NCBI GenBank assembly: GCA_021204025.1
Contig: JAJQAC010000017.1
Span: forward strand, 1,584-42,088
Source: Clostridiales bacterium
GTDB taxonomy: Bacteria; Bacillota; Clostridia; Lachnospirales; Lachnospiraceae
Direction: 5' to 3'
Length of the DNA stretch: 40,505 bases
Below the pieces are notes generated by a model. The model worked only from the letters and a program-made list of their open reading frames with translations. It did not search any database and was not told the DNA's origin. The position numbers and the translations under genes are program-made. Every line of letters starts with the position of its first letter. The first letter of the stretch is position 1. This document shows positions 24,556 to 40,458 of the stretch, piece by piece.

Positions 24556-24849
24556 TTATTTTCTCAGAATCTCCCAGTATCCCGAACGATTGGTTCCCAT
24601 ATGCCTTATCAATTGTACTTTTCTAAATTTCGTCAAGTAATATTTTACTCGATTGAGTTCCCATCCTAACGAAAGCGCCATGTCTCGTTGTGAATACTCC
24701 GGATGTTCCTTTATCAACTGAAGAATTTGTTGTTCTGTATCCGTAAATTCCCCAATTATCGTAGGGAATTGATTATCCAGTACACCATCCGTAATTTGGG
24801 TGGGACTTTGGGTAGACTGGGTGGGACTTTGGGTAGTTTGGGTGGGGCC
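24556..24849 (-). pseudogene. winged-helix C-terminal remnant, in frame after the M20 stop codon
   Basis: The minus strand is open for 97 codons directly after, and in the same frame as, the TAA of the M20 peptidase gene, with no start codon of its own near the front. It reads as a TQ/SPTQ linker, then FTDTEQQILQLIKEHPEYSQ, an HTH-like core ending in IRHMGTNRSGYWEIL and a stop. That ending is typical of the C-terminal winged helix of AlbA/AAA_4 or Fic-type proteins of Clostridia (family recognition by eye). The catalytic or ATPase part is missing. Most likely the 3' end of a deleted gene. A weak internal start (ATG, about 24684) has no ribosome site. Confidence 0.65.
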
Positions 24850-37270: not shown

Positions 37271-38950
37271 ATGGAAAAAGTAAAAATGCCGATTGGCATA
37301 GATGATTTTGCAAAATTGCGGGCTAATCATTTTTATTATGTGGATAAAACTGGTATGATAAAAGAACTTCTCGAAAACTGGGGGGAAGTCAATTTGTTTA
37401 CTCGGCCGCGCCGTTTTGGTAAAAGTATCAATATGAGTATGCTGAGATATTTCTTCGAGATCGGAACGGACAAAAGTCTGTTTGAAGGATTGTTTATTTC
37501 AAAAGAAATTCGATTATGTGAAGAACATATGGGACAATATCCAGTAATTGCTATATCATTAAAACAGGTGAGCGGAAACACATATGAAGGAGCGGAAGCG
37601 AATATCCGTAATATTATCAGCAGAGAGGCTCGAAGATTTTCGTGCCTTATGGATAGCGACATGCTCGATGAGGACGATAAATGGGTGTTGCGCAGACTCA
37701 GGAGAGGGGAAAGTCTTCTTGATGACAGTATTTACGATCTGTCGCGTCTGCTGAATAAGCACTATGATAAAAAAGTTATAATTCTGATTGACGAATATGA
37801 CGCCCCTCTTCAAAAAGCGTATGAAAATGGCTATTATGATGATATGGTTCGTCTGATTCGCCAGATTTTTGGTTATGCGTTGAAGTCAAACGAGGCGCTT
37901 TATTTCAGTGTTCTGACTGGCTGCATGCGTGTTTCAAAAGAAAGTATTTTTTCAGATCTGAATAATCCGGTTATTCATTCTATCAGTGATGAGCAGTTTG
38001 ATGAATGGTTTGGGTTCACGGATGCGGAAACGATCAGGGTTTTGGAGGATTTGGGGCTGTCCGCCCATTATGAGGTTACAAAAGAATGGTATGACGGTTA
38101 TCAGTTTGGGCAGCATAAAGTTTATTGCCCGCGGGATGTCATAAACTGGTGCAGCCAGCTTTTAAATACATCCGATGATATACCCAGAAATTTCTGGGTG
38201 AACTCCGGCGGAACGGATATGATACGTCAATTTGCGGAAATGGCGGATAGCACAACCCGCGATCAGATAGGAGATCTGATAGAGGGGAGGATCGTGCACA
38301 AGAAGCTAATACAGGAATTGACTTATCGGGATATGATGGAAAATCCGGAAAACATATGGAGCGTTTTATATACGACAGGTTATCTGACCCAGCAGGAGCG
38401 GTATCATGACGGAAGTTATGACCTGCGTATACCGAATCGTGAAGTGAAAAATATCTTTATGACAAAAGTCGATGAATGGTTTAAGACAAAGGTTCTTGAT
38501 GACGAGGATGGTCTAAAGGAGTTCTTTTGCGCGTTCATTGGCGGAGACGCCAAGGCGCTGGAGGATTGTCTGAATGTGCGGCTCGGTGAATCAATCAGTT
38601 ATCTGGATGAAGGAAAATATGAAGATAAGGAAACGTTTTACCATGGTTTGCTTCTCGGAATGTTGAACAGTAAAAAAGGATGGGAAATCCGATCAAACAG
38701 AGAAGCGGGAAAAGGAAGACCGGATATCACAGCGTTCAACCTGCGCGAGAAAGATGCCTATATTATTGAAGTCAAATATGCAAAACAGGAAAATAATTTG
38801 TCAGCGGATGCCCAAGCCGCGCTTGATCAGATTGATATACAGCAATATGATCAATATTTCCATTCACGGGAACCGAAACACATCCGACATTATGGAATTG
38901 CCTTTTGCAGGAAATTGTGCAGGGTACTAACTGAGAACCACCGGATGTAA
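37271..38950 (+). CDS. AAA-ATPase-like protein with C-terminal PD-(D/E)XK nuclease domain
   Basis: 559 residues. Starts MPIGIDDFAKLRANHFYYVDKT, followed by a Walker A variant TRPRRFGKSIN (about 44-54) and Walker B VIILIDEYDAPLQKAY (about 171-186). The C-terminus has a nuclease core GRPDITAFN...AYIIEVKYA (about 484-507). This is the AAA-ATPase_like plus PDDEXK_9 family, abundant and often multicopy in Bacteroidetes and Clostridia, with unproven function. AGGCGG lies 6 nt before the ATG. Its base composition is visibly more AT-rich than the housekeeping neighbours, and it abuts a truncated thiH, both consistent with transfer. Confidence 0.88.
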   Translation: MEKVKMPIGIDDFAKLRANHFYYVDKTGMIKELLENWGEVNLFTRPRRFGKSINMSMLRYFFEIGTDKSLFEGLFISKEIRLCEEHMGQYPVIAISLKQVSGNTYEGAEANIRNIISREARRFSCLMDSDMLDEDDKWVLRRLRRGESLLDDSIYDLSRLLNKHYDKKVIILIDEYDAPLQKAYENGYYDDMVRLIRQIFGYALKSNEALYFSVLTGCMRVSKESIFSDLNNPVIHSISDEQFDEWFGFTDAETIRVLEDLGLSAHYEVTKEWYDGYQFGQHKVYCPRDVINWCSQLLNTSDDIPRNFWVNSGGTDMIRQFAEMADSTTRDQIGDLIEGRIVHKKLIQELTYRDMMENPENIWSVLYTTGYLTQQERYHDGSYDLRIPNREVKNIFMTKVDEWFKTKVLDDEDGLKEFFCAFIGGDAKALEDCLNVRLGESISYLDEGKYEDKETFYHGLLLGMLNSKKGWEIRSNREAGKGRPDITAFNLREKDAYIIEVKYAKQENNLSADAQAALDQIDIQQYDQYFHSREPKHIRHYGIAFCRKLCRVLTENHRM

Positions 38951-40033: not shown

Positions 40034-40112
40034 AATGATAATTTCCTTTCTGCGATTTGGAATTTTAATATGCTTGGTCTGTTTAGGAAAAAGCGTTGTC
40101 TGAACTGTTATT

Positions 40113-40141
40113 AATATAACGAAAGGACAGAAAAAAGTCCA
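40113..40141 (-). promoter_or_regulatory. galE promoter
   Basis: On the minus strand TGGACT (40141-40136), 17-nt spacer, TATATT (40118-40113), 80 nt upstream of galE and 46 nt past the small-RNA terminator. Confidence 0.55.
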
Positions 40142-40187
40142 TATGAATTTGAAAGAAAAAGAATGATTTTTATCCTTTTGTTAAAAT

Positions 40188-40210
40188 AAAAAATCTCCCA
40201 TACCGGGAGA
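40188..40210 (-). terminator. terminator of the candidate small RNA
   Basis: TCTCCC/GGGAGA stem (40194-40199 with 40205-40210), 5-nt loop, followed on the minus strand by T6 and a further T-rich tract. It separates the RNA from galE. Confidence 0.8.
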
Positions 40211-40327
40211 CAACCATCTTCAAGGGGGGCCTGCTAAGGGGTAATCCCTTAGCAGGAATGAGTATGAAAAAGCTTTGTATCGTCAGGCGGAAAACTTGAC
40301 ACAAAGGTCATCGCCTTCCGACGATGC
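40188..40327 (-). ncRNA. candidate structured small RNA with H-type pseudoknot
   Basis: Read on the minus strand. A stem ATCGTC/GACGAT (40325-40320 with 40284-40279) and GGCG/CGCC (40315-40312 with 40289-40286) encloses a loop holding CTTTGT (40306-40301). That loop sequence is exactly complementary to ACAAAG (40278-40273), which follows the stem without a gap: a pseudoknot. Then comes an 11-bp perfect hairpin (CCTGCTAAGGG/CCCTTAGCAGG, 40256-40246 with 40240-40230) and an intrinsic terminator (40188-40210). A TATATT box at 40339-40334 would place the start at about 40327; its -35 is weak. No ORF is plausible. I did not match it to 6S, SRP, T-box, fluoride or c-di-GMP RNAs. Could be a free sRNA or an orphan riboswitch-like leader. 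Confidence 0.6.
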
Positions 40328-40429
40328 TTCTATAATATATACTAAAAATGTGAACGAATTATGTTCGGAAAGTGAAAAAACAATAAAGAAAGAAGAAATA
40401 AAAAGATTGGGAAACCGTGAAAAAAAGCC

Positions 40430-40458
40430 TTTAAAAATGTGGCGTGATTGTATATAAT
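40430..40458 (+). promoter_or_regulatory. promoter directed out of the right edge
   Basis: TTTAAA (40430-40435), 17-nt spacer, TATAAT (40453-40458). Expected start near 40465. The 80 nt before it, back to the small-RNA promoter, are A-rich and hold no recognisable gene. Confidence 0.6.

Follow-up and report, generated by a model that had tools for sequence, protein, structure and literature searches.

A putative antisense small RNA of Lachnospiraceae with two unpaired arms complementary to a translation start

What might be encoded in some 140 nt of non-coding DNA upstream of a galE-like gene in a Lachnospiraceae contig? Lachnospiraceae rank among the most abundant bacteria of the gut, and the question arises from the window, the whole 40,505-nt stretch of Clostridiales bacterium DNA analysed here, in which a sequence-only reading had singled out a possible undescribed structured RNA with a gap-free pseudoknot, transcribed apart from galE and perhaps binding a ligand or a protein. 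Compared with its relatives, this segment looks like a small-RNA gene on the minus strand, running from about 40327 to 40188. We assign a probability of about 0.62 to the reading that it encodes a trans-acting antisense RNA, an inhibitor of translation initiation whose gene has its own promoter and terminator and usually lies divergent from mreB (Table 1).

That the segment specifies a structured RNA was borne out by compensatory changes across many relatives. In an alignment of 29 relatives from which the window copy was excluded, three nested hairpins (A, B and C) were paired in 97.7% of 811 cells and changed on both sides in 13 of 28 pairs, with a covariation score of 0.353, for which shuffles gave 0.172 and slid controls no more than 0.103. 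Most of this signal came from hairpins A and C: in the same 29 relatives hairpin A was paired in 100% of cells and had 6 of its 7 pairs changed on both sides, and among 59 sequences of several subtypes the same was true of 7 of the 8 pairs of hairpin C. Hairpin B was paired in 93.8% and 95.7% of cells of the 29 relatives and showed little covariation. Unguided, RNAalifold returned nearly identical three hairpins. The minus strand folded at -55.7 kcal/mol and its shuffles, on average, at -35.7 kcal/mol (z -5.3; 0 of 200 dinucleotide shuffles as low). The 11-bp hairpin and the U6 terminator described earlier were both recovered, the latter among three terminator-like sites in a scan where 0.5 were expected. 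During alignment, L141 was dropped before set A2 and L023 between A2 and A3; for A4, 13 of 72 selected cores were excluded for odd hairpins, changed arms or long C-runs, an exclusion that flatters the conservation of the arms.

Table 1. Positions in the window of the putative small-RNA gene, its parts and its surroundings
Feature	Position	Strand	Remark	Basis
Putative small-RNA gene	40188..40327	-	5' end presumed near 40327, 3' end in U run	R1 match 40327-40221 and terminator
Hairpin A	40309..40326	-	7 bp, GGAA loop	Fold and relatives
Hairpin B	40273..40306	-	Outer 6 bp are the loop-to-tail stem of the sequence-only reading	Fold and relatives
Single-stranded arm AGCUUUUUCAUACUCAUU	40257..40274	-	Complementary to start codon region	Best conserved stretch
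Hairpin C	40230..40256	-	11 bp	Compensatory changes in 59 relatives
CCCCCCU arm	40223..40229	-	Complementary to Shine-Dalgarno sequence	Sequence; kept in relatives
Intrinsic terminator with U6	40188..40211	-		Terminator scan
Presumed -10 region TATATTAT	40333..40340	-	Missed by consensus scan	Aligned with conserved TATACT of relatives
Presumed degenerate direct-repeat site GAACATAATTCGTTCACA	40349..40366	-		Aligned with GACACA-N5-GACACA of relatives
Promoter-like site TGGACT-17-TATATT	40113..40141	-	Before galE	Consensus scan
Promoter-like site TTTAAA-17-TATAAT	40430..40458	+	Faces mreB in C50 copy and G006	Consensus scan
galE-like ORF, 338 aa	39017..40033	-	Downstream gene	Function judged from sequence
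Exact 361-bp repeat	40098..40458	n/a	Second copy at end of contig C50	Sequence match

Membership in a wider family was assessed with a covariance model of the 29 relatives (R1) and a core model (R2), both built without the window copy or L004, its nearest relative. R1 matched the held-out window at 68.2 bits (E 4.7e-13), the single match in 40.5 kb at E<=10, and this match is the independent test of membership; on the whole genome of origin, R1 recovered both copies of the gene. Across 299 sampled Lachnospiraceae genomes, scanned like the order and phylum samples below with strict filters that lose weak matches, R1 gave matches at E<=0.01 in 43 genomes, and R2 in 57 at E<=0.01 and in 40, the own genome among them, at E<=1e-5; these totals describe prevalence and are not an independent test, as many of the matched genomes supplied sequences to the models. 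Of 295 genomes sampled from the order, R2 matched 10, of which eight belong to Lachnospiraceae; the other two, from beyond the family, matched weakly (E 0.004 and 0.008). Among 299 genomes of the phylum it matched three, namely the own genome and two others at E 0.001 and 0.003, where the sequences (GGAGGTAATGAGTATGAAAAAGCTG in L254, GGGGGAGAATGGGTATGAAAAAGCTG in L255) are gene start sites on the opposite strand and the matches appear to be due to chance. The family was seen only in Lachnospiraceae, with weak matches only outside.

Two further searches extended the set of loci. A blast search with the surrounding 361 bp in 61 genomes matched 27, comprising the own genome, 20 of its 23 congeners and six genomes of other genera; these six gave only short, weak matches, and some congeners matched in the mreB promoter part only, although the loci fetched from these congeners nevertheless contain the RNA. 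A scan of GTDB genomes for the pattern AGCTTTTTCATACTCATNCC yielded at least 117 stretches, mostly from Lachnospiraceae or clostridia, with Enterocloster, Hungatella, Lacrimispora, Lachnoanaerobaculum and Brotaphodocola among the matches listed. Because these loci were selected by an exact match to that pattern, the selection itself accounts for part of the invariance of their 5' arm; the loci from the blast search and from the R1 and R2 genome scans were selected without it. Matches in Algoriphagus, Providencia, Asticcacaulis, Chlorobium and Methanobrevibacter were without a C-run and were taken as chance; the chance matches with no C-run include L075, L116, L123, L129, L131 and L135. Three Helicobacter loci (L068, L080 and L105), whose sequence looks like a gene start on the opposite strand, were also taken as chance. 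In the counts given below, copies are distinct sequences and not distinct species, and L068 is included in the count of 142 copies used for the promoter box and excluded from the 141 copies used for neighbours and terminators.

The earlier failure to recognise a known family agreed with the Rfam check once it was run: the window gave 0 matches in Rfam 15 at the gathering cut-off, and even at a permissive threshold the best score of the window end was 16.4 bits against a cut-off of 49.5. Twenty homologous loci yielded only tRNAs in Rfam 15, the L010 segment yielded nothing at E<=1, and phage and plasmid collections gave no match. A weaker-scoring class keeps CUUUUUCAUA and the hairpin and ends in CCUCC, the common anti-Shine-Dalgarno word (L245, L246 and L251-L253); it comes from the genera g323 and g231, lies near position 1501 of each locus at E of about 0.001 to 0.005, and has no mreB nearby.

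The antisense reading comes from two unpaired stretches, the best conserved of the RNA, which flank hairpin C: AGCUUUUUCAUACUCAU on its 5' side and CCCCCCU on its 3' side. When hairpin C is looped out and the two arms are joined, their complement reads AGGGGGG-UAUGAGU-AUGAAAAAGC, that is, a Shine-Dalgarno sequence, a 7-nt spacer, a start codon and two lysine codons (AUG AAA AAG C), with the 5' arm GCUUUUUCAUACUCAU pairing with AUGAGUAUGAAAAAGC. Scored as a translation start, this complement reached 11.1 bits, above 92% of 320 native starts, on a profile that favours the C arm, because the 320 naive ORFs behind it, drawn from 107 of the 117 loci, had been picked for a G-rich Shine-Dalgarno word; the same score was reached by 14 of 20000 shuffles that kept base composition only. 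Pairing of the arms with the 320 starts averaged -13.3 kcal/mol, and none of 30 shuffled arms paired as strongly (mean -11.7, sd 1.05). The CCUCC class and the two chance matches of R2 to gene start sites in the phylum sample also count in favour of this reading.

Under the antisense reading, the RNA would be transcribed from its own promoter to its own terminator, and its two single-stranded arms would be held out by the hairpins, of which A and B lie at the 5' end and C lies centrally. These arms would pair with a translation start while hairpin C is looped out, the 3' arm CCCCCCU lying on the Shine-Dalgarno sequence, and the start site so bound would be closed to ribosome entry, lowering translation. 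Target mRNAs would be expected to carry G-rich Shine-Dalgarno words 6-8 nt before AUGAAAAAG. Such a two-arm antisense design appears unusual and, if true, would mean that one RNA reads a whole translation start in two halves. A more specific proposal is offered only tentatively: that the RNA, its arms kept side by side by the covarying hairpin C, is a split antisense of the entire start (Shine-Dalgarno, spacer, AUG AAA AAG) which measures the natural distance between these elements and, controlled by a single dedicated regulator, represses mRNAs of a broad class, and that the CCUCC sister class does likewise.

No target with the full complement was found in the own genome. A search there for AUGAGUAUGAAAAAG after a Shine-Dalgarno sequence, allowing at most 2 mismatches, returned 31 places, two of which are the RNA gene itself and the rest without a convincing G-run, as compared with 12 places for a reversed control pattern. 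GGGG at 4-10 nt before AUGAAAAA occurred at 9 places of mixed kind, and the reversed control at 0; some of the 9 are probably intragenic, and others include, as judged from sequence, a likely transport-binding lipoprotein and a transporter permease. A regulon of signal-peptide genes was also considered and set aside, given that such genes made up 6% of the top 32 pairings and 5% of the 320 ORFs.

The extreme conservation of the unpaired arm across genera, with no target found, could be expected of an RNA that binds a protein, as a sponge or as a protein-guided RNA, with AGCUUUUUCAUACUCAU and the C-run as the binding sites. We consider this unlikely, though it is the alternative that fares best, because the joined arms read as the complement of a start to a degree that so few shuffles matched, and because the weaker class has CCUCC in place of CCCCCC, both of them anti-Shine-Dalgarno words.

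In relatives, a -10 box TATACT lies directly upstream of hairpin A, and a direct repeat GACACA-N5-GACACA occupies roughly the position of a -35 box. With as many as 5 substitutions allowed, the direct-repeat box was found upstream of 113 of 142 listed copies as against 10 of 625 control windows, and a stricter pattern with at most 1 mismatch had exactly one site, at the promoter of the RNA, in 6 of 6 genomes, with one match of its reversed control (in G010); no other promoters carrying the box were found in these 6 genomes. In the window copy there is no box match at 5 substitutions, and the alignment places GAACATAATTCGTTCACA at this position; the consensus scan, which found 4 sites where 1.9 were expected, placed no promoter before the RNA. 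Direct repeats with an 11-bp period suit regulators of the OmpR/PhoB type. Most likely the repeats represent an upstream activator site that is degenerate in the window copy, and transcription would probably be activated by a regulator that binds them near -35 and may belong to the response regulators of that type.

At the other end of the gene, a terminator-like hairpin followed by a T run was present after 115 of 141 listed copies. Between the C-run and the terminator lies a second conserved unpaired element, UACCUACCAUUCC, for example on the minus strand of L010 at about 1438-1500; it follows the C-run in 63 of 142 listed copies, is lacking in the window copy, and is perhaps a second pairing site.

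The link to galE that had been drawn from the window held in the own genome and in the nearest relative (G006) only, and elsewhere the usual neighbour was the cell-shape gene mreB; the claim that the RNA is separate from galE stood, and a promoter-like site for galE comes after the terminator. An mreB-like gene is divergent within 700 bp of 101 of 141 listed copies (92 of 124 loci), another 15 copies have mreB in the locus but farther off or in another orientation, and for 25 the fetched stretch contains no mreB start, in some cases because it breaks off too soon. The downstream gene is variable and, by naive ORF calls, lies on the strand of the RNA in 35 of 93 cases. Tandem copies occur in L009, L013, L042, L065, L071, L093, L108, L111, L121 and L126. 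Adjacency to mreB, varied downstream genes and tandem copies together argue for a stand-alone gene and not a galE leader. In these tandem copies, the 5' part is shortened and the core is unchanged. A 559-aa ORF next to galE in the window (37271-38950) resembles, by eye, a protein of the AAA-ATPase/nuclease type.

The own genome holds two identical copies of the gene, which may in truth be one. The 361-bp repeat in the window is identical to positions 13035-13395 of contig C50, where mreB follows; its two copies lie at the ends of two contigs, and each continues into a different tail of about 50 nt that matched nothing else fetched. In G006 (L004), mreB, the RNA and galE lie on one contig, and from this order contigs C50 and C75 are probably neighbours. 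Either the two contigs would overlap, their tails being doubtful, or an insert would separate the two copies of a tandem duplication.

The frequency of divergent mreB genes within 700 bp also invites the view that the RNA, or its transcription, acts in cis on the mreB promoter. This appears improbable in that the RNA of the C50 copy begins at a distance of more than 100 bp from the mreB promoter and is directed away from that promoter, tandem copies exist, and the copies just described with mreB farther off, otherwise oriented or missing from the fetched stretch (in part for lack of flank) do not fit a cis-acting element. A trans-acting antisense RNA remains our preferred reading of the locus.

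Folding energy was about equally good on the plus strand (z -5.1), and the strand was assigned from the pairs themselves: cells with G-U outnumbered those with A-C by 40 to 4 and by 17 to 2, so the RNA is that of the minus strand. Read in the other direction, the core is GGGGGG-hairpin-UAUGAGUAUGAAAAAGCUU and makes a plausible start in which a hairpin separates Shine-Dalgarno and AUG, and 136 of 141 listed copies would begin a small peptide MSMKKL, but the motif used for selection itself dictates these residues. A functional plus strand seems very improbable to us, given that the frames run for 6 to 61 codons and show no visible conservation past the motif and that both the G-U against A-C counts and the terminators indicate the minus strand; no conserved protein was found opposite the RNA among the listed copies.

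The complementarities on which the pseudoknot had been built are real and all on the minus strand (AUCGUC/GACGAU with GGCG/CGCC, and CUUUGU/ACAAAG without a gap), and dinucleotide shuffling of the segment produced an exact gap-free 6+6 pseudoknot in 20 cases out of 2000, which is uncommon and not decisive. The pseudoknot itself did not survive comparison: in the 29 relatives its 6-bp stem was paired in 56.9% of cells, with one pair formed in none of them, and its 4-bp stem in 57.8%. The loop-to-tail stem was paired in 94.2% of cells, being the outer part of the ordinary hairpin B; for this reason the pseudoknotted alternative as a whole still reached 71.1% of cells, against 69.9% in its shuffles, and its covariation score was reached by 49 of 500 shuffles. 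The nested two-hairpin fold of the window had -19.2 kcal/mol, as compared with -10.3 and -3.6 kcal/mol for the parts of the pseudoknot with loop cost uncounted, and the nearest relative keeps AUCGUC/GACGAU, yet its two-hairpin fold had -23.6 kcal/mol. A ligand-binding role found no support, the best conserved nucleotides being those of the single-stranded arms, the downstream gene variable and the copies at times in tandem. A pseudoknotted ligand- or protein-binding RNA, perhaps of this lineage only, is the most doubtful reading of all, its exact complementarities in the window and G006 being outweighed by stems that fail in the relatives, by a more stable nested fold and by the lack of a constant downstream gene.

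RsaE, FsrA, SprD and RNAIII are of a type in which an unpaired C-rich motif is able to pair with Shine-Dalgarno sequences. All four are named among the C-rich small RNAs of Firmicutes in the accessible part of one report (PMC4132741), and they differ from the RNA described here, which has no Rfam match, in hosts, sequences and structures. Closest in logic are LhrC1-5 of Listeria monocytogenes, which exist in several copies, carry a C-rich (UCCC) motif in unpaired regions, of a kind reported to interfere with initiation by blocking at the Shine-Dalgarno sequence, and require the two-component system LisRK for transcription, in a context of cell-envelope stress (PMC4132741). Multiple copies and an unpaired C-rich motif, here the CCCCCCU after hairpin C, are thus shared. 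However, no Rfam match links the two, and the C arm is here coupled across a hairpin with an anti-start arm. As to promoter control, direct repeats that may bind a response regulator lie upstream of 113 of 142 listed copies, with no box match in the window copy.

Comparative discovery of the same kind has been carried out in screens for structured RNAs in 26 and 50 bacterial genomes (PMC8632094, PMC11109978), whose main texts, as far as accessible, contain no mention of Lachnospiraceae; the 50-genome search was, by the accessible account, not designed for comprehensive finding of small RNAs (PMC11109978). A start-site study of Clostridium phytofermentans reported other non-coding RNAs, with mreB absent from its main text in the accessible portion, and used libraries with a 200-bp size threshold, by which an RNA of this size would be missed (PMC5171806). 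The literature search returned no paper containing CATACTCATACC and nothing naming this RNA; supplements and most subscription journals were beyond its scope, so that the RNA may already stand without a name in some transcriptome table. The RNA family is undescribed in the sources searched, and its class, antisense small RNA, is already known.

A conserved and often duplicated RNA gene beside mreB, together with its covariance model and well-defined arm design, provides a direct handle on post-transcriptional control in Lachnospiraceae. Elsewhere in the window, positions 24795-24846 hold a short tandem array with the unit TGGGTGGGACTTTGGGTAGAC.
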